Shown piece after piece: positions 20,178-32,098 of a stretch of DNA of 64,000 nucleotides. Both the position numbers and the translations under genes were made by a program. The notes beneath the pieces are model-generated. The model had not been told where the DNA came from. It worked only from the letters and a program-made list of their open reading frames with translations, and made no database searches. Source of the stretch: Acrocarpospora macrocephala (GTDB taxonomy: Bacteria > Actinomycetota > Actinomycetes > Streptosporangiales > Streptosporangiaceae); contig NZ_BLAE01000040.1 of NCBI RefSeq assembly GCF_009687865.1, positions 1 through 64,000 of the forward strand, written 5' to 3'. Positions within the stretch are counted from its first letter, which is position 1. Each line of letters starts with the position of its first letter.

Positions 20178-20742
20178 CGGCAAGAAGATGCCCGTCCCGA
20201 TCAAGCTGCTGATCGCGGGCGGGTTCGGGGTGGGCAAGACCACCATGGTGGGCGCGGTCTCCGAGATCAAGCCGCTGCGCACCGAGGAGACCCTGACCGA
20301 CCGCAGCGTGGGCGTCGACGACCTGTCCGGCGTGGAGTCCAAGAACACCACCACGGTCGCGATGGACTTCGGCCGGATCAGCATCGGCGACGACTTCGTC
20401 CTCTACCTGTTCGGCACGCCCGGCCAGGAACGTTTCTGGTTCGTCTGGGACGAGCTCGCCCGCGGCGCCCTGGGCGCGGTCGTGCTGGCCGACACCCGCC
20501 GCCTGGCCGACTGCTTCCCCTCGGTCGACTACTTCGAACGCCGCGGCACCCCGTTCATCGTCGCCGTCAACTGCTTCGACGACGCTCCTCGCTACGACCT
20601 GGACGAGGTCAAACTCGCCCTCAACCTGGGCCCCGACATCCCGGTCCTGCTCTGCGACGCCCGCCGCCGCGACTCCGGCAAGGAAGTCCTCATCGCCCTG
20701 GTCCAGCACGCCTACGGCCGCCGCCCGATGGCGAAGGTGTGA
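20158..20742 (+). CDS. cvnD: Conservon small GTPase (CvnD)
   Basis: A 194-residue Ras-like ATP/GTP-binding protein. Walker A is GGFGVGKTT, a switch II-like DxxG region appears as LFGTPGQERF, and NCFD is in the place of the NKxD base-recognition motif. It is the G protein of the conservon, interacting with CvnB. The four-gene set is complete; no P450 follows, unlike some Streptomyces conservons. Confidence 0.92.
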   Translation: MVSGPSDGKKMPVPIKLLIAGGFGVGKTTMVGAVSEIKPLRTEETLTDRSVGVDDLSGVESKNTTTVAMDFGRISIGDDFVLYLFGTPGQERFWFVWDELARGALGAVVLADTRRLADCFPSVDYFERRGTPFIVAVNCFDDAPRYDLDEVKLALNLGPDIPVLLCDARRRDSGKEVLIALVQHAYGRRPMAKV

Positions 20743-20797
20743 ACACCGGTGCTCGGATAAAATTCCCGATCAAATAGGGATATAGCGGAAGGAGTAA

Positions 20798-20826
20798 TTC
20801 TTTCATCCGAGATTTCACTTTATAGT
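20798..20826 (+). promoter_or_regulatory. Possible promoter of the PP-loop/protease operon
   Basis: A TATAGT hexamer at 20821-20826 with a weak TTCTTT 17 bases upstream lies in an AT-rich spacer, 66 bases before the PP-loop gene. Good -10 match, poor -35, so only a suggestion. Confidence 0.35.
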
Positions 20827-20891
20827 GCTATGCCATGGACGTATTCCGTCCTGCGTGCTAAACCTGAAGGTGCGCGGCGGATGGAGCGTCG

Positions 20892-21869
20892 ATGACCGGA
20901 ACCCACTGGCAGGGCATCCTAAATTCGGTCCGGCAGGCCAATGATCTCTATGGCCTGATTCCGGCGGCGGAACCCGTGGCCGTGGCATTCTCCGGGGGTA
21001 AGGATTCGCTTATCCTCGCGCTGGTCCTTCGTGAACTCGGCGTTCCGGTGATCTGCGTCTCGATCGATATGGGCTATGAATCCGGCTGGGGCGGCCGGAT
21101 CATGGAAATGGCATCCCGCGCCGGACTGCCGGTTGACGTCGTCGATGTCAGAGCGGGCCCGGCCGTGGCGGTCCGGGACCGTACCACGATTCGAAGAAGT
21201 CTTTCCGTTCTCGATGTCATCCAGGCCGGTGCGACACCCTGCACGCATTGCTACAACGTCAAGGTGCTGGCGCTGGAGAGCCGGGTCCGCGCGCATGGCG
21301 CGTCGGTGGTGGCCTTTGGGCATCACCGTACGGATGCCCTGGCTTCCCTGCTCAAGGAAGCGCTGATGCACATCGATAGATGGGATGAGGGCAACTCGGT
21401 ATTCGTCCGCGACAACTTCGCCGCGCTTGTCGAAAGATTCAGAGTCGAGACAGTCGCGGGTGGAGCCGGTGGGAGACTTCTCGACCGGATCACTGAGCTC
21501 GTCCATACTGACCTGGTCGATACGGACGAGCCCCCGAGGCAACCGCTCAACAGGGACAATCCCGGCGTGCAGATTATCCGTCCGATGTTCTTCGTGGACG
21601 AGAAATCGATCATTGAAATCATCGCCGAACGTGATATTAAGACTGAAGGGTCCGGTTGCTCGCACGGGTTGGCCGCTAACTACCTGACACCTCGGGAGAT
21701 GGTCCACTATGGTGTCCTGCGACATGCCTCCGGTCGATGGCTGAACGGCCACCTGGAACAGCTGTTAATGCATGGAATCGACGAATACGGGCGAGCTCGC
21801 CTGGCGGCACGGCGTCATCGAGCGGCGTTGCTCGGGGCGCGATACAAACCCGGTCTCAACAAGCCTTAG
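20892..21869 (+). CDS. TtcA-like PP-loop ATP pyrophosphatase
   Basis: A 325-residue N-type ATP pyrophosphatase. The PP-loop SGGKDS is at residues 34-39. C117 and C120 (PCTHC) and C256 (EGSGC) sit where TtcA-type tRNA thiolases hold their iron-sulfur cluster, and GHHRTDALASLL matches the GHH.dD box. Such enzymes adenylate a substrate carbonyl for sulfur or nitrogen transfer, usually on a nucleobase. It is diverged from housekeeping TtcA and heads a five-gene run with two deoxyribosyltransferase-like proteins and a protease, so a special base-modifying role is inferred. The PP-loop and all three Cys are intact. Confidence 0.8.
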   Translation: MTGTHWQGILNSVRQANDLYGLIPAAEPVAVAFSGGKDSLILALVLRELGVPVICVSIDMGYESGWGGRIMEMASRAGLPVDVVDVRAGPAVAVRDRTTIRRSLSVLDVIQAGATPCTHCYNVKVLALESRVRAHGASVVAFGHHRTDALASLLKEALMHIDRWDEGNSVFVRDNFAALVERFRVETVAGGAGGRLLDRITELVHTDLVDTDEPPRQPLNRDNPGVQIIRPMFFVDEKSIIEIIAERDIKTEGSGCSHGLAANYLTPREMVHYGVLRHASGRWLNGHLEQLLMHGIDEYGRARLAARRHRAALLGARYKPGLNKP

Positions 21870-21876
21870 GAATGCC

Positions 21877-22311
21877 ATGGTCACCCTGACAATCTGTGGC
21901 AGCGCCAGGCACCGCGCAGCCATTCACCAGACGGGTCGGTTACTTGGAGACGCCGGCTTCGTCGTTCTCACCCCGCCGCTGCATCGCATCGACGAACTGA
22001 CCGCCGGTCAGCCGGCCGAGGCCAAGGAACTCGCCTGGAAAGGCGCGACTTTCGCGCATCTCAACCGGATCGTGAAGGCCGACGTGGTCTTCATCGTCAA
22101 CCCGGACGGCTACCTCGGATCCAGCACAACCCTCGAATTAGGGTATGCGGTGGCCCTGGGCAAGCTTGTCGGCGCGATGATGCCGGACGCGAACGAGCTC
22201 GCCCGAGGGGTTCTCTTTGATCTGGTGCTCCATTGCAAGGAAGTGGACCTGGCGGTGGCGGAGCTGACGAACCGTCTCAGCCCCATGGCCGGTAAATGGC
22301 CAAGGACATAG
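21877..22311 (+). CDS. Nucleoside 2-deoxyribosyltransferase-like protein 1
   Basis: A 144-residue Rossmann-like protein. It has TICGSARHR at the N-terminus and KADVVFIVNPDGYLGSSTTLELGYAVALGK, where E87 matches the catalytic Glu region of nucleoside deoxyribosyltransferase-like folds. These enzymes cleave or exchange the N-glycosidic bond of (deoxy)nucleosides or nucleotides. The ATG at 21877 is chosen because the family motif begins there; the frame is open 100 bases into the previous gene. It starts 7 bases after the PP-loop stop. Confidence 0.7.
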   Translation: MVTLTICGSARHRAAIHQTGRLLGDAGFVVLTPPLHRIDELTAGQPAEAKELAWKGATFAHLNRIVKADVVFIVNPDGYLGSSTTLELGYAVALGKLVGAMMPDANELARGVLFDLVLHCKEVDLAVAELTNRLSPMAGKWPRT

Positions 22312-22811
22312 GCGCCGCGCTCGCCGACCAGTGGAATCGGGCGCATCAGGAAACCGCCAGCACGGACGAGTTCTGGCCGCTCATGCGAATCCTGTCGGAC
22401 GCGGGTCTGGTCACGGGTGACGAGCAGTCCCTGACCACGCTCCAACTCGGGCCGTTCCGCATCGCCGCCACCCCGTACGAGAGAGCGACCCGCGACTTCC
22501 TTGACGTGTTGCTGCCCTCCCTCGTCGTGGGCGCCGCCGACGGCGTGCCGTTGCATGGGGTGATCGCCGGGACGCTCACCGCGGGCACGCGGTGCTTCGT
22601 CGAGCTGCTGCGGCGTGGGGTCGTCTTCGGGCGTTCACCGGCGGATCGGGTGCGGTGGGCCGTGCTGATCCACATCAAGGAGCATCGTCCGACAGCCGAT
22701 GATCTGGCCGACGCGCACCATGGCGCCGACATCCCGGCGGTCCTGACCTGGCTGACCGAAGCAGGACTCGTCGTGTGCGGTCCCGATGGTTCCTGGGAAA
22801 GCCTCGCGTGA
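22296..22811 (+). CDS. Unknown protein in the PP-loop/protease operon
   Basis: A 171-residue protein overlapping the preceding gene by 16 bases. The middle (VLLPSLVVGAADGVPLHGVIAG) is hydrophobic and helical; the C-terminal 60 residues (HRPTADDLADAH, VLTWLTEAGLVVCGPDGSW) look like a winged-helix fold. I do not recognise the family. Its position between a nucleotide enzyme and a protease makes it a candidate adaptor or sensor; this is inference. Confidence 0.6.
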   Translation: MAKDIGAALADQWNRAHQETASTDEFWPLMRILSDAGLVTGDEQSLTTLQLGPFRIAATPYERATRDFLDVLLPSLVVGAADGVPLHGVIAGTLTAGTRCFVELLRRGVVFGRSPADRVRWAVLIHIKEHRPTADDLADAHHGADIPAVLTWLTEAGLVVCGPDGSWESLA

Positions 22812-22817
22812 CACCCG

Positions 22818-24557
22818 ATGGTCGCCGCCGCCACCTTTTTGCTGACAGATGGCGACGGCGCGGTGCTGGGCGTGGCCTTTCCCGCGCCGGTCCTCGACGC
22901 CCAGCGTACGGGAAGCTTCCTGCTCACCGCCGCGCACTGCGTCCGTTCGTTGTTCGACGGGCGGAAGCGGGTCCGAATCCGCACTGCGGGGGGACAGTGG
23001 AGCGAGTGCACGATACTCCTGTGCACGTCAGATGACGTCGCGCTGCTCCACCATCCGGAATGGTTGGCGGACCCGCGTCCCTGCTTCGCCGACCACGCTC
23101 CTGGAGCGGTGTCGATCCGGGGTGCGCCGGCCGGTGTCACGACCGAGCAGGCCACCTTCGTCGGCCGGCTGGCCGGGGTCGAGGACGGACTCCTCGATAT
23201 CGTGCTGCAGGACCTCACCCTTGTGGAACGCCGTGATCTCCCCGTCCATGGCGGGCCCAGCGCCACCTATCGTGCGCTTCGCGGTCTATCGGGAGGGCCG
23301 GTATGGCGAACGGGAGAGGACGGCGTATCTCGGGTCATTGGCCTGGTCACCCACCGGAACACCTCGGGAATCGCCAATCGGATCTACGGTATTCCGATCG
23401 ACCGGGTCGCTGCCATCTTGGCGAGGCGAGATGTGACCCTGCAGCTGACCATCCAGATCGCCCATGTGGGCATGGATCGTCAGATGCTGACCGGGCTTAT
23501 CGGCGACCTGATTAATGACGCGGACGGAGCCCTGAAGCTCTGGTCTCATCTGTCTGGTCTGTTCTACAAGGGCGAACCCATCGACAAGGTCCTTGAGGCC
23601 ATGCTGGCTGAGCCGCAGCGCCACCGCGTGAATGACGATCTCCCCCGGGCCCGTCTGGAGTATGTCTACGGTCGCCTCCTGCTCAAGCGGGATAACGGGC
23701 AGAAGGGACTCACACTCATTCATCAGGCCAGGTCACGGGTGCGGCGCGCCGACCCCGCCGACCGAGAGGGCCTGGGAGCCCTGATGGACCTCAGATTTCT
23801 CCTGGAGGATGCCCAGCGTGGGAGCAGGCCCGTGCGGGCCCATGCCTACCTCATGGAAATGGCCATCGACCGGGTTGGCCAGATCGATGCCATGCCTGAT
23901 GAGCGTAGAGCGTACGAGATCGCGTCGGCGGCTGGGCGCGAGGCCGTGCTCGCCTACCTCGAACACCCTCCGCCCTGGTCCCATGATGATCCGACACGCG
24001 CCTACTACTCCCGGCTCAAGTCTCAGCACGCCTCTCTTCTGCACAAATACGGTATGGCTCTCCGCGACAAGCAGGAGATCGTGCAGATTGGTCTTGCGGT
24101 GGTTCCAGCGATATGGGACCTGACTTCGGGGGCCATGGCGGAGGTCAGAGACCTGATGGAGCTCGGCAAAGTCGCCGCCACTCAGCGGTCGAATGCCATC
24201 TTCTACGCCCAGATGCTGCTAATCGAGATTGCACTGGCTCGCGCGGAAGGCCGCGATCTTCATGCGTATACGCTAGCCTGCTTGACCACACAGGCATTGA
24301 GAAACGCTGGCCTGCTGCTGACGCACGAGGGCATCGCGGCCATTCTCCGATATGTGAGGACCGCTGACCCTGCACTGTACAGGTTTATCAATATGGTTCA
24401 CCATCTTGGCATCAGAAGGGGGATTGAGCTGGCGAAGATCAGGTCTGGTGGAGAAAGGAGCATGATCGAGGACGCGGGCCGGATCGCCGAACTCTACGCT
24501 GACCAGGTGCGGGATATCAAAGGCATCATGACGCTTCGGCTGGACGCTCTGGAATAG
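22818..24557 (+). CDS. Trypsin-like serine protease with long helical C-terminus
   Basis: A 579-residue protein. Residues 1-205 form a trypsin-like protease with a complete triad: H40 in LLTAAHC, D73 in SDDVALL, S158 in GLSGGPV. There is no signal peptide, so it should act in the cytoplasm. Residues 210-579 are almost wholly helical with repeat-like units, similar to the TPR or effector-associated regions fused to cytoplasmic trypsins in bacterial conflict systems. Those systems usually have a sensor partner that unleashes the protease. Here the partners are nucleotide enzymes. Six bases separate it from the gene before and 12 from the gene after. Confidence 0.78.
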   Translation: MVAAATFLLTDGDGAVLGVAFPAPVLDAQRTGSFLLTAAHCVRSLFDGRKRVRIRTAGGQWSECTILLCTSDDVALLHHPEWLADPRPCFADHAPGAVSIRGAPAGVTTEQATFVGRLAGVEDGLLDIVLQDLTLVERRDLPVHGGPSATYRALRGLSGGPVWRTGEDGVSRVIGLVTHRNTSGIANRIYGIPIDRVAAILARRDVTLQLTIQIAHVGMDRQMLTGLIGDLINDADGALKLWSHLSGLFYKGEPIDKVLEAMLAEPQRHRVNDDLPRARLEYVYGRLLLKRDNGQKGLTLIHQARSRVRRADPADREGLGALMDLRFLLEDAQRGSRPVRAHAYLMEMAIDRVGQIDAMPDERRAYEIASAAGREAVLAYLEHPPPWSHDDPTRAYYSRLKSQHASLLHKYGMALRDKQEIVQIGLAVVPAIWDLTSGAMAEVRDLMELGKVAATQRSNAIFYAQMLLIEIALARAEGRDLHAYTLACLTTQALRNAGLLLTHEGIAAILRYVRTADPALYRFINMVHHLGIRRGIELAKIRSGGERSMIEDAGRIAELYADQVRDIKGIMTLRLDALE

Positions 24558-24569
24558 AAGGAGAGGATC

Positions 24570-25067
24570 ATGGCAATCAAGGTCTATCTGGCCGGGCCGT
24601 TCACCGCTGTGGCTGACTCAGCCGCTGGCGTCATCGACGCGGACTCGCCTTGGCGGCGCATTCTCGAGGCCACGGAACGCGCACTCGGCGACAAGGGCTG
24701 GGGCGTGTTCCTCCCGCACCGGGACGTCAGCCGCTGGGGTCTGCGGGACGCCGCTCCGGAAGAAATCGCCACCGAGTGCCTGGAAGCCGTGCTGGCCAGC
24801 GACTGCGTCATCGCCGTGCTTGGCGAGAGCTTCGGGACCCATGTCGAAGTGGGCACCGCCATCGGCCGCAGCATTCCCACGATCATCATCGACGCCGCAG
24901 GCGAGGCGGGTTCCTTCTTCGGGAAGGCGGTCATGGCCTCCTCCCTTGTCACCTGCATCCGACTCGACAGCCTGCAGGAACTGCCTGCGATCGTGGCGAG
25001 CGAACGGTTCGATCACGCAGTGCGGTCAGCGGGGGTGCACTCTGACGGTTTGCGTGATGTCGGCTAA
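24570..25067 (+). CDS. Nucleoside 2-deoxyribosyltransferase-like protein 2
   Basis: A 165-residue protein of the nucleoside 2-deoxyribosyltransferase fold: KVYLAGPFT at the N-terminus, WRRILEATERALGDKGWGVFLPHRD, and SDCVIAVLGESFGTHVEVGTA with E93 at the catalytic Glu position. It closes the five-gene run, with GAAGGAGAGG before the ATG. It is not a duplicate of the protein at 21877; the two differ in motifs. Its 3' end overlaps that of the convergent kinase remnant by three bases. Confidence 0.75.
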   Translation: MAIKVYLAGPFTAVADSAAGVIDADSPWRRILEATERALGDKGWGVFLPHRDVSRWGLRDAAPEEIATECLEAVLASDCVIAVLGESFGTHVEVGTAIGRSIPTIIIDAAGEAGSFFGKAVMASSLVTCIRLDSLQELPAIVASERFDHAVRSAGVHSDGLRDVG

Positions 25068-25746
25068 GCGACCTCACGGAGGAGGTACGTCACCAGGCCG
25101 GTGATGGAACTTCGCAGGCTCTCCATGGAACCTGAATTGTCGATCACCCAGTCGGCTGGAATCGCAGCGAGATCGAGTTCGGTGACGTGGCTCGCCGAAC
25201 CGAGAGAGAGGTCGCCTCGGCTCCGGCGCCGGAGCAGGCACACGCTCTCGGGGGAGATGACCCGGATAATCGAGAAGCCCTGAGATCGCATGAACTCGAA
25301 ATCGGGGAAGCGCATGTCGTCGCAGACGATATTAATTAGAAAGTCGTGATCTGGATAGCCGCAGCGGTGTGTCGCCTGGTCGGCGGCTATGCGGCTGTCT
25401 ATGGGACGGGTTTCTGGTTAATAAGACCTGGTCCGGAGGTCAGGCGATGGGTGCGCTGAATTTCGTTCAGCCGGGCCGAGAATCGATCCTGGAGCACCAT
25501 TGAGTTGATCTTCCGCATGTAGTGACCGAGGAAGTTCAGCAGTTCCCCGTCCTTGCGATAGAAGTGGTCGAGTTCCCGGCCGGCGCAGCGATATACGGCA
25601 GATTGTGCCTCGTAGAGTGGATCTGCGAGCTTTATGAGCGAAAAAGGAAGCTTTCCGGATTCGCAGAAGCGATGAACGATCTGCGCCGCTGTACTCTTCC
25701 CGGCCCCTGGTGCTCCACATAAAGCGATCTTGAAGAATTCCGCCAT
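25064..25746 (-). pseudogene. dNMP-kinase-like P-loop protein, split by a 92-bp repeat
   Basis: The N-terminal half (25746-25423) has Walker A G11-APGAGK-S-T19 and a LADPLYE segment as in deoxynucleoside monophosphate kinases. The C-terminal half (25330-25064) starts IVCDDMRFPDFEF and continues with SHVTELDLAAIPADWVIDN. Between them lies the 92-bp palindromic repeat (25331-25422), which brings a TAG in the first frame and a TAA in the second. Removing exactly the 92 bp joins GPGL to IVCDDMRFPDF in frame and gives a 196-residue protein of normal family length. The gene is therefore a recent loss. It presumably phosphorylated a (modified) deoxynucleotide. The local sequence is AT-richer than the rest of the window. 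Confidence 0.85.
25331..25422 (-). repeat. 92-bp palindromic MITE-like repeat, copy A
   Basis: The copy reads on the minus strand from 25422 to 25331 and matches 35748-35839 in 87 of 92 positions. Ends are near-perfect inverted repeats (TAACCAGAAA and TTTCTAATTA), and an inner stem AGCCGCA/TGCGGCT can form. It interrupts a kinase-like gene. The exact edges and any target duplication (AT or TAT) are ambiguous because the ends are AT-rich. Confidence 0.88.
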
Positions 25747-25885
25747 GCTCCACCTTCCGAACCAATCTGAGCATACGATGAGATGCCCGAGTTGTGGCGG
25801 AGGGAAATAGACGAAAATCCTCGGGACTGCCGGTATTTCAATTTTCGGATACGGTCGAATGCGAGTGGACCCGTACTAGATCGTG

Positions 25886-26764
25886 TCAGAAGTGCCAGGG
25901 AAACGGGCTCCAGTCGGGGGCGCGCTTCTCCAGGAAGGAGTCCCGGCCCTCGGCCGCCTCCTCGGTCATGTACGCCAGCCGGGTCGCCTCCCCCGCGAAC
26001 ACCTGCTGCCCGACCAGGCCGTCGTCGATCAGGTTGAAGGAATACTTGAGCATGCGCTGCGCGGTCGGGCTCTTGCCGTTGATCTTGCGCGCCCACTCCA
26101 GCGCCGTCCGCTCCAGCTCCTCGTGCGGCACGACCGTGTTGACCATGCCCATCCGGTGCGCGGCCTCGGCGTCGTACGTGTCGCCCAGGAAGAAGATCTC
26201 CCGGGCGAACTTCTGCCCCACCTGGCGGGCCAGGTAGGCGGAGCCGAAGCCGCCGTCGAAGCTGGCCACGTCCGCGTCGGTCTGCTTGAAGCGGGCGTGC
26301 TCCCGGCTGGCGATGGTCAGGTCGGCCACCACGTGCAGGCTGTGGCCGCCCCCGGCCGCCCAGCCGGGGACCACGCAGATCACGATCTTGGGCATGAACC
26401 GGATCAGCCGCTGCACCTCCAGGATGTGCAGGCGGCCGGTGGCGGGGGTGCCGTCCGCGTACTGGTAGCCGTCCTTGCCGCGGATGCGCTGGTCGCCGCC
26501 GGAGCAGAAGGCCCAGCCGCCGTCCTTGGGGGACGGGCCGTTGCCGGTGAGCAGCACGCAGCCGACGTCCGTGGTCATCCGGGCGTGATCGAAGGCCTGG
26601 TAGAGCTCGTCCACGGTCTGCGGGCGGAACGCGTTGCGGACCTCCGGCCGGTTGAAGGCGATCCTGACCGTGCCCTGATCGACCGCGCGATGGTAGGTGA
26701 TGTCGGTGAACTCGAAGGCGTCCACCGGCTCCCACGCCTTGTCGTCGAACAGCTCAGAAACCAT
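25886..26764 (-). CDS. menB: 1,4-Dihydroxy-2-naphthoyl-CoA synthase
   Basis: A 292-residue crotonase-fold enzyme that closes the naphthoquinol ring of menaquinone from o-succinylbenzoyl-CoA. Family marks are AFNRPEVRNAFRPQTVDEL, AFCSGGDQRIRGKDGYQY, VVPGWAAGGGHSLHVVADLTIAS (oxyanion hole), TDADVASFDGGFGSAYLAR and the C-terminal APDWSPFPWHF. ATG at 26764 is preferred over the longer frame because GGGGAG precedes it. It lies 31 bases downstream of menF on the same strand. Confidence 0.95.
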   Translation of the reverse strand: MVSELFDDKAWEPVDAFEFTDITYHRAVDQGTVRIAFNRPEVRNAFRPQTVDELYQAFDHARMTTDVGCVLLTGNGPSPKDGGWAFCSGGDQRIRGKDGYQYADGTPATGRLHILEVQRLIRFMPKIVICVVPGWAAGGGHSLHVVADLTIASREHARFKQTDADVASFDGGFGSAYLARQVGQKFAREIFFLGDTYDAEAAHRMGMVNTVVPHEELERTALEWARKINGKSPTAQRMLKYSFNLIDDGLVGQQVFAGEATRLAYMTEEAAEGRDSFLEKRAPDWSPFPWHF

Positions 26765-26795
26765 TCCCACTCCCCAATATCGTCCTGCCTGCACT

Positions 26796-27986
26796 CTAGA
26801 AGCTCCCCACGGCCTCGCGGACGCCGAAGATGTCGCGGACCGCACCCAGCTTGGCCTCGGTCTCCTGCCACTCGGCCGCCGGGCTGGAACCGGCGACGAT
26901 GCCGCACCCGGCGAACAACCGCAGCTCCTGGCCGCTCACCCGGGCGCAACGCAGGGCGATGCACCATTCCCCGTCGCCCCGGGAGTCCTGCCAGCCGACC
27001 GGGGCGGCGTACCGGTCCCGGTCCAGGCACTCCAGGGAGCGCAGCAGTTCCCGCGCCTGGTGGGTGGGCGTGCCGCACACGGCGGCGGTCGGATGCAGCC
27101 GCCCCGCGAGGGCGAGCGCGTCGGTGTCGCCGCTCAGCGTGCCGGTGATCATGGTGGCCAGGTGGGTGACGTTGGCCAGCCGGAGCACGTGCGGGGTGGG
27201 CACGTCCAGGGTGTCGCAGTACGCCTCCAGGACGGCGATGGCCGAGTCGGCGGCCAGCGAGTGCTCCACCGAGTTCTTGGGCGTGACCAGGTTGTGGGCG
27301 CCGCCCGGCCAGGCCGTACCGGCTAGCACCAGGGAGGTGATGTCGCGGCCGTGCCGGCTGGCCAGCAGTTCGGGGGACGCGCCGACCAGGCCGTCCACCG
27401 CGAAGGACCAGCAGGAAGGGAAACGTTCGGTCAGGCGGGCGAGGGCGGTGCGCGGGTCGAAGGGACTCGCCAGGCGGCCGCGGAGGTCCCTGGCCAGCAC
27501 CACCTTCTCCAGCCGGTCGGCCTTGATGTCCTGGACGGCCTGGGTGACCGCGCTGTGCCAGCGGGCCCTGGCCCCCGGTTCAGGGCGCCAGTCGACGTGC
27601 GGCAGCGGATCCCAGGGGACGCGGGGCAGCTCCTCGGGGTCGCCGACCGTGGTCTTCCAGGCGATCCCGTCCCGGCGGCCGATCACCACCCGGGGCACGA
27701 TCAGCACGGATTTTCCCGGGCCGTCGTCGAAGGTGAAGCTGCCGAAGACGATCGGGCCCGAGCCCGGGCGCTCGACCTCGTCGCTGATCCGGCTGACGGC
27801 CGTGAACCGCCGCCACCAGCGGCGGGCCAGGTCGAAGCGGTCGGGACCGGAGATCTCGAGCCGGGCGGCCTCTCCCCAGGCCACCATCCCGTCGCCGCCG
27901 CGCAGCCATAAGGTGGCTCCGGCGTGCGGCGCGACCTCCAGTAATGAGCCGGGATCGTCGATCTTGACGGTGCGGACCAGCTCCAT
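26796..27986 (-). CDS. menF: Isochorismate synthase
   Basis: A 396-residue chorismate-utilising enzyme that converts chorismate to isochorismate, the entry of menaquinone synthesis. The C-terminal domain shows KVVLARDLRG, SPELLASRHG, LAGTAWPGG, NSVEHSLAADSAI, HLATMITGTL, LHPTAAVCGTP and AGCGIVAGSSPAAEWQETEAKL, the usual Mg- and chorismate-binding boxes. Its ATG overlaps the TGA of the methyltransferase gene by one base. Association with menB supports menaquinone rather than siderophore synthesis. Confidence 0.92.
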   Translation of the reverse strand: MELVRTVKIDDPGSLLEVAPHAGATLWLRGGDGMVAWGEAARLEISGPDRFDLARRWWRRFTAVSRISDEVERPGSGPIVFGSFTFDDGPGKSVLIVPRVVIGRRDGIAWKTTVGDPEELPRVPWDPLPHVDWRPEPGARARWHSAVTQAVQDIKADRLEKVVLARDLRGRLASPFDPRTALARLTERFPSCWSFAVDGLVGASPELLASRHGRDITSLVLAGTAWPGGAHNLVTPKNSVEHSLAADSAIAVLEAYCDTLDVPTPHVLRLANVTHLATMITGTLSGDTDALALAGRLHPTAAVCGTPTHQARELLRSLECLDRDRYAAPVGWQDSRGDGEWCIALRCARVSGQELRLFAGCGIVAGSSPAAEWQETEAKLGAVRDIFGVREAVGSF

Positions 27987-28795
27987 CAGGCCGCACCTCC
28001 CGCCGGGCGGCGCGCGTGCACGCTGTGCACGGTGAAGGAGACCGCGCGGAAACCGGGCTCGGCCATGAGCTTCCGGACGCCGGTGAGCTGGGCGGAGGTC
28101 ATGCCCGCGGCCAGCAGCTGGGCTTCCAGGTGGTGGCTGTTGCTGATCAGCAGGCCGAGGCCGGGCGAATCAGGACCCCATACCTCGGTCTTGCAGGCCG
28201 GGTCCACGTTGGTGAAGCCCGCCTCGGCGACCGCCTGGGCAACCGACCTGCCCCAGGTCGGGTCGGCCCCGACCGCGTCCAGCACGGTGGCCAGCGTGGT
28301 GAGGTAGGTCTCGTAGAGTTCCCGCGCCTGCTCGTCCGGCGTGAGTAGCGCGGGCCAGTGGGTGATGTCGATCTCGTCGAGCTGCAGCCAGCCGCCCGGG
28401 CGGAGCGCCCGCAGCAGGCGGGCCAGCACGTGCTGCCGATCCGGCAGGTGGCTGAGCACCAGCCGGGCGTGCACCAGGTCGAAGCCCGCGTCCGGCAGCG
28501 GATCATGGACGATGTCGTGGCGGGTGACGGTGAGGCCCGGATGGGCGGGGATGAGGCCCGGCTTGATGTCCGTGGCCAGCACGCTGCCCTGGGGCGCGAC
28601 CCGTTCGGCCAGCCAGCGGGCGACGCTGCCGCCGCCCGCGCCGATCTCCAGGCAGTGCCACCCCGCGGTCACCCCGGTGCGGGCGAGACGCTCGAAGGTC
28701 AGCGGATCGAGCAGGTCGGCCAGACATCGGTGCTGGTCGGCCGAGTGAGCTCCGTCGTTGTCGAACACGTAGTGCGGCTTGGTGGCATGCGCCAA
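27986..28795 (-). CDS. SAM-dependent methyltransferase in the men operon
   Basis: A 269-residue class I methyltransferase. Motif I is LEIGAGGGSVARWLAE, followed by LATDIKPGLI, DLVHARLVLSHLPDR and LRALRPGGWLQLDEID. It is first in a likely three-gene operon with menF and menB. It could be a quinone methyltransferase, but the sequence looks more like general small-molecule methyltransferases than UbiE/MenG, so that role is only suggested by position. Confidence 0.75.
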   Translation of the reverse strand: MAHATKPHYVFDNDGAHSADQHRCLADLLDPLTFERLARTGVTAGWHCLEIGAGGGSVARWLAERVAPQGSVLATDIKPGLIPAHPGLTVTRHDIVHDPLPDAGFDLVHARLVLSHLPDRQHVLARLLRALRPGGWLQLDEIDITHWPALLTPDEQARELYETYLTTLATVLDAVGADPTWGRSVAQAVAEAGFTNVDPACKTEVWGPDSPGLGLLISNSHHLEAQLLAAGMTSAQLTGVRKLMAEPGFRAVSFTVHSVHARRPAGGAA

Positions 28796-28892
28796 CTGGG
28801 TCTCCCCCGAAAGAAGCAGATGGACCAGTTCCGCATGCTAGACAGTCGTTACTCTGAGTAAGTATCTCGACACTCGCGACTTGGCCGGTTTC

Positions 28893-30020
28893 TCAGGAAG
28901 TGCGGATTCCCCGCCGGAAGACGGCCGCCGGGCGCTGGAGCAGGCGGTGGTCCTTGGTCGGGTCGCCGGCGACCGCGAGCAGGTCGGCGTCGAAGCCGGG
29001 GGCGATCCTGCCCTTGCGGTCGTCGACGCGGCAGGCGCGGGCGGCCAGGCTGGTGAACGAGCGGAGGACCTCGGTGGGGGTGCACCCGGCGAAGTCGACC
29101 AGCATCTCGCCGCCGTAGGGGAGGATGCCGTGCGGCTTGACCGGGCCGATGCCCGCGTCGCTGCCGCCGATGATCTGGACCCCGGCCGCGTGCAGCAGGC
29201 GCATGCCCTCGGCCAGCCCGGGAAGGCGGCGGGCGATCACGGGCGGCGGGTTGAAGCCAGGCAGCACGCCGACCGTCAGCGAGGCGAAGATCCCGCTTTC
29301 AGCCAGCCGGGCGATCAGCTCGCGGTCGGGGCTCACGCCGTCCTCGGTCAAGAAGGAGACATGTTCGATCGAGTCGAATCCCGCGTCGAGCGCGGCGGCG
29401 ATGCCCACGGAGGCGTGCGCGTGGCCGGTGATGGGCAGGCCGTGCAGGTGCGCCTCCTCGGCGGCGGCGCGAATCTCGGCGGGGGTGAACTGCAGCAGGT
29501 GGGAGTGGGTGCCAGGAGTCATCTCGCCACCGGTCACCATCATCTTGATGGCTTTCGCGCCGCGCGCGGCTCTTTCCCGTACGGCTTCGCGGATGCCTTT
29601 CTCGCCTTCGGCCTCGCCGCCGAGGAACCAGCAGTGACCCCGGGGTGAGGTGATGGGCGCTCCGGCCGAGAGGATCTCGGGGCCGTCGGTGAACTCCTGG
29701 GCCAGTTTGATGGCCAGGTAGTCCTTGTCGCCCAGGTCGCGGATGGTGGTCACCCCGGCGGCCAGGTGCAGTTGCGCGGCCGTACGCATGCGCTCGTAGA
29801 GGCCGTCCTCGTCGAGGTGGCCGATGGGGTCGAGGCTGGCGTCGAAGGCGAGGTGCACGTGGGTGTCGATCAGGCCGGGCAGGAGGGTCACGTCGCCCAG
29901 GTCGAGGGCGTCCTCGGCGTCGTCGAGGAGCGCGATGATCCGCCCGCCGTCCACGACCACCGCCCGCGAGTGGATCAGGTTGTGTCCGTCGAAGATGCGC
30001 TGCGCGCGAATGGTTTGCAT
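28893..30020 (-). CDS. Imidazolonepropionase-like amidohydrolase
   Basis: A 375-residue metal-dependent amidohydrolase. Metal ligands are visible in LIDTHVHL (HxH), KMMVTGGEM (Lys), TGHAHA and IEHVSFL (His), and GGSDAGI (Asp). It belongs to the prolidase/imidazolonepropionase-like branch that hydrolyses amide or C-N bonds, including Xaa-Pro dipeptides. No signal peptide. It starts only 38 bp from the GH20 promoter region and is divergent from that gene. Confidence 0.85.
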   Translation of the reverse strand: MQTIRAQRIFDGHNLIHSRAVVVDGGRIIALLDDAEDALDLGDVTLLPGLIDTHVHLAFDASLDPIGHLDEDGLYERMRTAAQLHLAAGVTTIRDLGDKDYLAIKLAQEFTDGPEILSAGAPITSPRGHCWFLGGEAEGEKGIREAVRERAARGAKAIKMMVTGGEMTPGTHSHLLQFTPAEIRAAAEEAHLHGLPITGHAHASVGIAAALDAGFDSIEHVSFLTEDGVSPDRELIARLAESGIFASLTVGVLPGFNPPPVIARRLPGLAEGMRLLHAAGVQIIGGSDAGIGPVKPHGILPYGGEMLVDFAGCTPTEVLRSFTSLAARACRVDDRKGRIAPGFDADLLAVAGDPTKDHRLLQRPAAVFRRGIRTS

Positions 30021-30139
30021 GTGATCGATTGCACTGCGGGTCGGGGGGCTGGGGCATGAGTACCCCCGTACTCGAAACGGGTCTTGACGGCTGGTGAACT
30101 GTAAATAAAGCTTACTAATTAACAGTCTGGGAGGCGCTT

Positions 30140-32098
30140 GTGACCCGGTTCGCGCGTGTTTTCGTGGCAGTGCTTCTGGCCAGCACCGCAGTGATCGTGC
30201 CCGCGTCGGCGCCGGCGGTGGCGGCCACGATGGCGGATGTCGTACCGGTGCCGGTGAGCATGCAGCCGTCGGCGGCGACCTACACGCTCCCGTCGGGGGC
30301 GAGCATCTTCACCCAGGCGGGATCGGCCGATGTCGGGACTTATCTGGCGGGTATTCTGCGGCGTTCGACCGGGTACGCGCTGCCGATCGCGAGCGCCGGA
30401 TCGGGTGAACCCACCAGTGGCATCTCCTTGCTGCTCAGCGGTGCCGACCCGAGCGTGGGCGCGCAGGGATACCAGCTCGACGTGACCGCCGCCACCGTGG
30501 TGCTACGGGCGCAGACGGCGACCGGCCTGTTCAACGGGGTCCAGACGCTGCGGCAGCTGCTGCCGCCGGAGATCGAGAGCACGACCGTGCGCCCGGGGCC
30601 CTGGACGGTTCCCGGGGGCAGGATCGTGGACTATCCGAGGTTCCCCTACCGGGGCACGATGCTCGACGTGGCGCGGCACTTCCACCCGGTGGCCACGATC
30701 AAGCAGCACATCGACCGGATCGCGCTCTACAAGATCAACTACTTACACCTGCACCTGTCCGACGACCAGGGCTGGCGGATCGTGGTGGACTCCTGGCCCC
30801 GGCTGGCCACCTTCGGCGGCAGCACCCAGGTGGGCGGCGGCCCCGGCGGGTACTACACGAAGGCGCAGTTCCAGGACATCGTCGCGTACGCCGCGGCCCG
30901 GCACATCACGATCGTGCCCGAGATCGACATGCCGGGGCACACCAACGCCGCGCTCGCCTCCTACGCCGACCTCAACTGCAACGGCGTCGCCCCCGCGCTC
31001 TACACCGGAACCGCCGTCGGGTTCAGCTCGCTCTGCACGACCAAGGAGATCACCTACACCTTCGTCAACGACGTGCTGACCGAGCTCGCGGCGCTGACGC
31101 CCGGGCCGTACCTGCACGTCGGCGGCGACGAGGCGGACGCGACCTCAGCCGCCCAGTACGCCACCTTCATGAACCGGGTGCAGCCGCTGGTGACCGGCAA
31201 GAACAAGGCCGTCATGGGCTGGCACCAGATCGGCGCCTCGGCCGTGCAACACTCGGCGAACCGGATCGTGCAGTACTGGGGCACCACCACGTCCGACTCG
31301 CTGGTGAGCACCGCCGTCTCGCGCGGCGCGAAGGTCGTCATGTCACCGGCCAACAAGGCCTACCTCGACATGAAATACACCAACGCCACCCCGATCGGGC
31401 TCAGCTGGGCGGGCCTCATCGAGGTGCAGACCGCCTACGAGTGGAACCCCGGCGCCCACCTGAGCGGCGTGCCCGCCACCGCCGTCCTCGGCGTCGAGGC
31501 CCCGATGTGGACCGAGACGATCGTCACCGAGGACCACATCGAGTTCATGGCCTTCCCCCGCCTGCCCGCCATCGCCGAACTCGGCTGGTCCCCGTGGTCC
31601 ACCCACAACTGGACGGCCTTCCGCGCCCGCCTGGCCGTCCAGGGCCCGCGCTGGACGATCATGGGCATCGACTTCTACCGCTCCCCCCAGATCGCCTGGC
31701 CCACATCGGGCACGACCGTCCGGTACGAAGCCGAGAACGCCGCCATCACCCAGGGCGTCGTCGAGTCCAACCACGCCGGCTACTCCGGCACCGGCTTCGT
31801 CAACTACGACAGCGCCGTGGGCAGCAGCGTCCAGTGGACGGTCACCGCCCCCACCGCGGGCACGGCCACCCTCCGCCTCCGCTACGCCAACGGCACCACG
31901 GCCAACCGTCCCATGGACATCACCGTCAACGGCACCTTGGTCGCCGACGAGTTCGCCTTCACGGGCACCGGCGCCTGGACAACCTGGCAGACCAGGACGC
32001 TGACGGTGACGCTACCCGCCGGAACTTCCACCATCCGGGCCACAGCCACCACCGCGAGCGGCGGCCCGAACGTCGACTATCTCGAAGTGCAACGTTGA
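30140..32098 (+). CDS. Secreted GH20 beta-N-acetylhexosaminidase with a C-terminal carbohydrate-binding domain
   Basis: A 652-residue exo-hexosaminidase. Signal peptide at 1-29 (ends APAVAA). A GH20b N-domain precedes the TIM barrel: RGTMLDVARHFHPV, YLHLHLSDDQGWRI, EIDMPGHTNAA and the catalytic pair D330-E331 in HVGGDEAD, where the Asp assists the substrate acetamido group. Residues ~530-652 (VRYEAENAA, GYSGTGFVNY, VDYLEVQR) are a CBM35/6-like module. It probably releases GlcNAc from chitin or glycoproteins. The GTG start is preceded by GGGAGG. Confidence 0.93.
   Translation: MTRFARVFVAVLLASTAVIVPASAPAVAATMADVVPVPVSMQPSAATYTLPSGASIFTQAGSADVGTYLAGILRRSTGYALPIASAGSGEPTSGISLLLSGADPSVGAQGYQLDVTAATVVLRAQTATGLFNGVQTLRQLLPPEIESTTVRPGPWTVPGGRIVDYPRFPYRGTMLDVARHFHPVATIKQHIDRIALYKINYLHLHLSDDQGWRIVVDSWPRLATFGGSTQVGGGPGGYYTKAQFQDIVAYAAARHITIVPEIDMPGHTNAALASYADLNCNGVAPALYTGTAVGFSSLCTTKEITYTFVNDVLTELAALTPGPYLHVGGDEADATSAAQYATFMNRVQPLVTGKNKAVMGWHQIGASAVQHSANRIVQYWGTTTSDSLVSTAVSRGAKVVMSPANKAYLDMKYTNATPIGLSWAGLIEVQTAYEWNPGAHLSGVPATAVLGVEAPMWTETIVTEDHIEFMAFPRLPAIAELGWSPWSTHNWTAFRARLAVQGPRWTIMGIDFYRSPQIAWPTSGTTVRYEAENAAITQGVVESNHAGYSGTGFVNYDSAVGSSVQWTVTAPTAGTATLRLRYANGTTANRPMDITVNGTLVADEFAFTGTGAWTTWQTRTLTVTLPAGTSTIRATATTASGGPNVDYLEVQR

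Follow-up and report, generated by a model that had tools for sequence, protein, structure and literature searches.

Several described systems resemble parts of the locus studied here, a six-gene cassette in Acrocarpospora macrocephala. Viperin, acting with a nucleotide kinase, is an iron-sulfur enzyme that makes an antiviral nucleotide inside the cell, and in the sulfur transferases TtcA and TtuA three cysteines bind an iron-sulfur cluster. The N-glycosidases MilB and BlsM are members of nucleoside-antibiotic pathways (PMC4081090), and the structure of MilB superposes on that of DNPH1 (PMC10603095). In bacteria of multicellular habit, actinobacteria included, trypsin-like peptidases are coupled to other domains, and base-releasing enzymes of the TIR/DRHyd type are named as effectors in such conflict systems (PMC7159879, PMC8195603). 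The window, by which we mean the whole stretch of 64,000 nucleotides that was analyzed (contig NZ_BLAE01000040.1, positions 1 to 64,000), sits on a 104-kb contig of a 12.1-Mb genome. Its cassette encodes a PP-loop enzyme (gene 1), two proteins with the fold of nucleoside deoxyribosyltransferases (NDTs; gene 2 or NDT1, gene 5 or NDT2), a small protein with a predicted winged helix (gene 3), a trypsin-like protease (gene 4), and a protein resembling deoxynucleoside monophosphate (dNMP) kinases (gene 6). We find that these six genes, protease included, form one unit whose integrity is well supported, and we tentatively read it as a module for defense.

The cassette, its second copy, and its insertion site

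A search for the protease in 345 genomes of the order led to G580, a genome of a different genus in the same family, whose protease is 58% identical over its full length (E value, 3.2e-200). G580 carries all six genes in identical order and orientation, and its kinase open reading frame (ORF), of 213 amino acids, is intact. The full set was therefore present in both of the two genomes with a full-length protease, the kinase being split in the window. For genes 1 to 5, whose products are 65, 73, 58, 58, and 76% identical between the copies, the nonsynonymous and synonymous substitution rates (dN/dS) were 0.27/2.01, 0.18/0.91, 0.35/1.00, 0.35/1.26, and 0.19/1.27, respectively; because dS is near saturation, only the direction (dN < dS) is meant. 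As judged from these aligned copies, this direction shows that genes 1 to 5 are under purifying selection. Furthermore, the catalytic triad of the protease, the PP-loop and the three cysteines of gene 1, and the nucleophilic glutamate of both NDT-like proteins are identical in both copies.

The surroundings of the two copies are different. In G580, the cassette and the counterparts of the genes that flank it in the window are on different contigs, and synteny between G580 and its genus-mate G007 ends about 200 bp before the cassette. Since the flanks differ, the six genes look like a complete unit. Similarity between the two DNA sequences starts about 40 bp before gene 1, and two promoter-like boxes, TGGACG and TAAACC (TACACC in G580), are found just upstream of that start. 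The two copies resemble each other in both boxes and in the last part of the spacer, while the first 11 bases of the spacer mostly differ; we infer that these boxes are the promoter of gene 1.

In three genomes of the window's own genus (G001, G002, and G003), alignments place an upstream cluster (NIT-sensor kinase, roadblock, DUF742, and GTP-binding proteins) within 4 to 13 bases of a block that matches window positions 25886 to 32095, and tblastn recovered none of the cassette genes in the corresponding stretches. The site is thus empty in these genomes, and the window carries a 5.15-kb insert (20739 to 25885) together with an inversion of the 6.2-kb block at this position. One end of the inverted block coincides exactly with the edge of the cassette. 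The counterpart block of G003 holds an additional stretch of about 1.2 kb. The corresponding stretches of a further genome, G004, also harbor no cassette gene, but they are spread over two contigs and the block differs in part, so this genome is not decisive. The base composition of the insert is foreign: its G+C content is 0.62, against 0.69 in the remainder of the window, and its third-position G+C content is 0.64 to 0.84, against 0.88 to 0.96 in the nine neighboring genes measured. No terminal repeats marking a transposon were recognized at the insert. Overall, the cassette appears to have been acquired horizontally and to move between bacteria as one block.

The earlier note on this DNA had read the gene set as a candidate undescribed system, with a nucleotide-salvage or natural-product module beside a chance protease as the alternative. 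The grouping is more than chance: all six genes are found again, ordered and oriented alike, at a different site in a different genus, and dN stays below dS in the five intact genes. A mere neighborhood of unrelated nucleotide genes and a stray protease, in whose favor we find nothing except the rarity of the set, is hardly credible: it is refuted by the second copy, with six genes conserved at unrelated sites in two genera and jointly absent from the empty site. The note had also taken a gene order restricted to close relatives as evidence against a system; the gene order does extend to a second genus, but this genus belongs to the same family, and just two of the 345 genomes of the order show it. 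The unit is thus real and rare, and the earlier proposal is partly supported.

The rarity is based on 1981 genome look-ups in overlapping samples: 120, 345, and 396 genomes were searched for the protease, and 394, 365, 180, and 181 genomes for the PP-loop enzyme (one genome per species, with the top few candidates per genome scored); the cassette was found only in the window genome and G580. Absence elsewhere is suggestive only, since the samples overlap, few candidates were scored, and the searches of 365, 180, and 181 genomes had no positive control. A stretch of 36 residues in G508 also matched the protease (E, 9.6e-4), but we discarded it as generic, as no other cassette gene was matched on that contig. 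Intact recurrence in two genera at unrelated sites, yet in two genomes only, is the pattern expected of accessory defense or of specialized metabolism. The coordinates of all features are collected in Table 1.

Table 1. Features of the cassette and of the adjoining block in the window
Feature	Position	Strand	Evidence or remark
Putative promoter, TGGACG-17 bp-TAAACC, upstream of gene 1	20836..20864	+	Boxes alike in G580; role inferred
Gene 1, PP-loop enzyme, TtcA/TtuA-like; SGGKDS loop, Cys117/Cys120/Cys256	20892..21869	+	65% identity to G580 copy
Gene 2 (NDT1), fold of nucleoside deoxyribosyltransferases and N-glycosidases; SSTTLELG motif with Glu87	21877..22311	+	PF05014, E 5e-7; 73% identity to G580 copy
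Gene 3, predicted winged helix at the C terminus (residues 115-171), N-terminal part uncertain	22296..22811	+	Predicted structure; 58% identity to G580 copy
Gene 4, trypsin-like protease (triad H40, D73, S158) followed by ~340 residues of alpha-helical tail	22818..24557	+	58% identity to G580 copy
Gene 5 (NDT2), nucleoside monophosphate N-glycosidase-like, SFGTHVEVG motif with Glu93	24570..25067	+	76% identity to G580 copy
Gene 6, dNMP-kinase-like, C-terminal piece in another frame	~25064..25417	-	49% identity to intact G580 kinase over 117 residues
Gene 6, dNMP-kinase-like, N-terminal piece with P-loop	25399..25746	-	57% identity to intact G580 kinase
Whole inserted cassette, 5.15 kb	20739..25885	.	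Same site without cassette in three same-genus genomes; GC 0.62 vs 0.69
Adjoining chromosomal block, inverted relative to same-genus genomes, outside cassette	25886..32095	.	Same-genus alignment

Families and conserved residues of the six proteins

Genes 1 to 5 lie tightly packed on the same strand, as the earlier note had placed them: genes 2 and 3 overlap by 16 bp, genes 3 and 4 are 6 bp apart, and genes 4 and 5 are 12 bp apart; gene 6 is convergent. The start of NDT1 was taken at 21877, the position conserved with the G580 copy. Regarding the families named in that note, Pfam supported the PP-loop enzyme and the two NDT-fold proteins, while the trypsin match stayed below threshold and gene 3 was left without a family. 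NDT2 does have the NDT fold, but its best solved relatives are nucleoside monophosphate (NMP) N-glycosidases rather than deoxyribosyltransferases. The convergent kinase-like gene is present, although in the window it is not one intact ORF but two pieces in different frames. The long helical tail of the protease was recovered in the predicted structure along with a preserved triad, and no signal peptide is evident by inspection.

The window copy of gene 1 matches the Pfam families PAPS_reduct (E, 1.2e-4) and ATP_bind_3 (E, 1.6e-4), and its SGGKDS loop and three cysteines are kept in both copies. Cys117, Cys120, and Cys256 are present in 40/45, 45/45, and 44/45 aligned PP-loop proteins, respectively, the alignment being made of the two cassette copies and 43 loci picked by their PP-loop pattern, MnmA-like and other kinds included. 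The loop motif and the arrangement of a CxxC and a distal cysteine are shared with TtcA and TtuA, and by analogy the three cysteines would bind an iron-sulfur cluster, probably [4Fe-4S]. However, gene 1 scores only 46.4 bits against the TtcA equivalog model, far below the curated cut-off of 272, and at E 0.01 its solved relatives are TtuA only (four sequences; best E, 1.9e-7), with a match that spans about residues 12 to 91. Gene 1 could nevertheless thiolate a base in tRNA or DNA, with genes 2, 5, and 6 handling the modified nucleotides released. Its closeness to the tRNA thiolases TtcA and TtuA and its cysteines speak for such a base modification; the TtcA score, the lack of a recognized nuclease or nucleic-acid-binding partner save the winged helix, and a protease left unexplained make it improbable. 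Among the distant PP-loop enzymes listed, the most similar (32%, Candidatus Nealsonbacteria; L007, 9926 to 12262) stands beside genes resembling, by eye, DUF523/TudS desulfidases.

With Nuc_deoxyrib_tr (PF05014), NDT2 gave a match just under the Pfam cut-off (E, 4.5e-6). NDT1 resembles solved NDTs weakly (E, 0.019), its Glu87 aligning with theirs. The best solved relatives of NDT2 are the N-glycosidases BcmB, MilB, and BlsM (best E, 2.9e-6), and S87, G89, and E93 of NDT2 align with S97, G99, and E103 of MilB, for which D78 is also described (PMC4081090). The S-x-G phosphate loop and the nucleophilic glutamate are therefore present in NDT2, which shares them and the fold family with MilB, BlsM, BcmB, and DNPH1. 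It differs from these enzymes in having Cys70 for the aspartate and in lying beside a protease, outside any recognized antibiotic cluster.

The intact kinase of G580 matches phrog_139, the dNMP kinases of PHROGs (E, 5.2e-20), and gave no match to DNMK in Pfam. The window copy of the kinase is interrupted by a change of frame, which may be either a mutation or a draft error.

These likenesses bear on a further explanation, sanitation or salvage of the nucleotide pool, in which DNPH1-like N-glycosidases would remove damaged or thiolated NMPs, the PP-loop enzyme and the kinase would be accessory, and the protease would control expression under stress. The motif positions that NDT2 has in common with MilB, which superposes on DNPH1 (PMC10603095), would agree with this, as would the dNMP kinase family matched by gene 6. 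On the other hand, the cassette was found in just two genomes, into one of which it was recently inserted, and salvage would not call for a protease whose triad is conserved. Salvage genes are usually widespread, and we consider this explanation quite unlikely.

Gene 3 of the window matches nothing in Pfam up to E 1, in a set that presumably included the Trypco1 and Trypco2 models, and has no convincing family in other libraries. Its predicted structure has a mean predicted local distance difference test score (pLDDT) of 59.9 and contains a block with values of 81 to 93 over residues 121 to 170. Foldseek returned weak winged-helix matches (E, 0.059 or worse), and the C-terminal end is predicted to be a winged helix.

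The protease matches Trypsin_2 below the cut-off (E, 1.1e-3 in the window; 0.055 in G580), and its triad, H40, D73, and S158, is conserved in the G580 copy. The predicted model has a trypsin fold with HtrA1 as the best Foldseek match (E, 1.7e-4); among the 50 of 668 matches listed, all are trypsin-fold proteases by description and none is a helical-repeat protein. From residue 221 on, the model (mean pLDDT, 54.6) contains 19 predicted helices of at least 4 residues. We considered an HtrA/Deg protease, as the fold matches HtrA1 and DegS, but Pfam found no PDZ domain in either copy, the helical tail standing in its place. A search with the tail alone retrieved two proteins (E, 4.7e-15 and 2.2e-11) from G996, whose genome belongs to the same phylum; they have no Pfam match and no alignment to the triad. 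Because it occurs on proteins without a trypsin match, the tail is a separable module. The two G996 proteins (L053, 8410 to 10137; L054, 179 to 1819) have a different N-terminal half, and each has a divergent neighbor that encodes 328 or 358 amino acids; one of these neighbors has a near-threshold sigma-region-4 match, the other no Pfam match.

Comparison with defense systems and proposed function

We compared the cassette with described defense and conflict systems. PADLOC gave a match to LmuA over the protease domain, residues 32 to 208 (E, 2.6e-5 in the window; 0.0088 in G580), to a dCTPase model for the kinase (0.011 for the window piece; 3.3e-4 in G580), to a TIR effector model for NDT2 (0.01 and 0.02, respectively), and to BrxP for gene 1 (0.042, in the window copy only). 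Although the likeness to LmuA runs across the trypsin domain of gene 4, it is weak and stops before the tail, and neither Pfam nor PADLOC recognized an SMC-like LmuB in either copy; Lamassu was rejected for these reasons. The VMAP/MoxR-vWA ternary, NucA-trypsin, and EAD-type systems share with the cassette a trypsin-like peptidase, and base-releasing enzymes are named among their effectors (PMC7159879, PMC8195603). The six genes have, however, no match to MoxR, vWA, NucA, or STAND, and gene 3 has no Pfam model; as none of the ten window neighbors had a vWA or MoxR match either, a ternary system was also rejected. The term "PP-loop" is absent from the main text of these two papers.

With viperin and its kinase the cassette would share an iron-sulfur enzyme next to a nucleotide kinase; it has a PP-loop enzyme instead of a radical SAM enzyme, as well as additional glycosidase-like proteins and a protease. 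No described system with the six-gene set was found in the libraries and open-licence papers searched, which agrees with the earlier note, where the combination was not recognized as a named system, but is not proof that it is unpublished. Among the ten window neighbors, which were run against Pfam but not PADLOC, no defense gene was recognized. Next to the cassette of G580, L005 (12383 to 15163) encodes a STAND-like NTPase of 926 amino acids with a subthreshold AAA_16 match, TPR repeats, and, by eye, a hydrophobic N terminus; it is suggestive only, because no such gene lies by the window copy.

We propose, tentatively, that the cassette is a self-contained module, gained by horizontal transfer and working inside the cell, whose enzymes act on (deoxy)nucleotides or their bases under a protease switch, and that its purpose is protection from invaders. 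A conflict system is plausible, although the searches brought up no direct evidence for defense. The three-cysteine PP-loop enzyme would adenylate and probably thiolate a base or nucleotide, NDT1 and NDT2 would break or exchange N-glycosidic bonds of nucleotides, and the kinase would phosphorylate a (modified) dNMP. The helical tail of the protease may sense a signal and free the trypsin domain; within the operon, the closest candidate for a target of this domain is the winged-helix protein, a likely regulator. Protection from an invader such as a phage could then come from making or releasing a modified nucleotide or from depleting nucleotides. The action is placed inside the cell because no transporter family was matched in Pfam by the six proteins of either copy. 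Defense is, in our view, the most likely single reading, at below even odds.

A more specific version has only a slim chance of being right: a new cell-autonomous immunity in which the PP-loop enzyme and the dNMP kinase would make a thio-modified (deoxy)nucleotide that poisons the replication of phages, the NMP N-glycosidase-like proteins would control its level, and the protease, its tail serving as a solenoid sensor, would cut the winged-helix regulator and switch the operon on.

Several observations weigh against defense. Glycosidase activity of NDT1 and NDT2 is not assured, since His61 of NDT1 stands opposite the aspartate of solved NDTs and Cys70 of NDT2, placed by counting in the alignment and the same in both copies, stands opposite the catalytic D78 of MilB; E69 or E72 of NDT2 might stand in for the latter. 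The kinase gene is disrupted in the window, so that it may not be needed or may contain a sequencing error, and tblastn with the G580 kinase retrieved nothing from phages. The PADLOC matches, weak throughout (E, 2.6e-5 or worse), make no convincing tie to a named defense system. Both known copies belong to one family, the structure models of genes 3 and 4 are poor, with the means given above, and the presence of membrane segments or signal peptides was assessed solely by eye. Moreover, an intracellular nucleotide-modifying pathway under the control of the protease and the winged-helix protein fits nearly as well.

Finally, in five of the six plasmid neighborhoods examined, relatives of the kinase head clusters that look like biosynthesis rather than defense, with dCTP-deaminase-like and methyltransferase genes. 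This would be in line with a small natural-product pathway for a nucleoside or nucleotide: a base modified by the PP-loop enzyme would be set free by the MilB-like protein, the product would serve as substrate for the kinase, and the protease and the winged-helix protein would regulate this pathway specifically. NDT2 points the same way, its best solved relatives being cytidine monophosphate (CMP) N-glycosidases, of which MilB and BlsM come from nucleoside-antibiotic pathways (PMC4081090). Against this, Pfam recognized no transport, resistance, or tailoring gene of a nucleoside-antibiotic cluster among the six, and the cassette is flanked in the window by ordinary, syntenic chromosome of the genus, with flanks that differ between the copies. 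We regard such a pathway as rather unlikely.

Should the defense reading hold, a protease switch would be combined in one system with a sulfur-transferase-like enzyme and with nucleotide N-glycosidase-like proteins, a combination not found in the searches made. The G580 copy, with its intact kinase, makes the function directly testable.

Distant relatives on plasmids and in phages

No relatives of gene 1, gene 4, NDT1, or NDT2 were confirmed in scans of viral contigs. In plasmids, with phages not searched, tblastn gave no match for the protease. The PP-loop enzyme matched two plasmid records and one phage record at 25 to 28% identity over less than half its length. A motif scan of a genome collection (VAFSGGKD and one other motif) returned at least 43 distant PP-loop enzymes, which says little on the spread of the cassette.

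The G580 proteins served as tblastn queries for the remaining genes. Plasmids yielded nothing for NDT2 or gene 3. The kinase matched 10 plasmid records, of which the six neighborhoods mentioned above were examined. Five harbor a recurring actinobacterial cluster (L082, 713 to 7077; L083, 7995 to 14897; L084, 8001 to 14845; L087, 7956 to 12056; L086, 7977 to 10668) that contains the leading kinase, dCTP-deaminase-like genes (mostly two), a methyltransferase, a glycosyltransferase, and, for the most part, a cytidine deaminase and sugar enzymes; several have a divergent helix-turn-helix regulator. For L086 and L087, the genes were assigned by eye from ORFs. The literature searched contained nothing on this cluster. 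The sixth neighborhood, L085, holds only a regulator and the kinase.

NDT1 gave five weak plasmid matches, at 35 to 41% identity, and one weak phage match; the cassette was not seen in the three of the five plasmid neighborhoods that were examined. On plasmid L090 (1684 to 8279), an NDT1-like gene (35%, weak) lies about 5 kb from an annotated dndC, another sulfur transferase of the PP-loop type.

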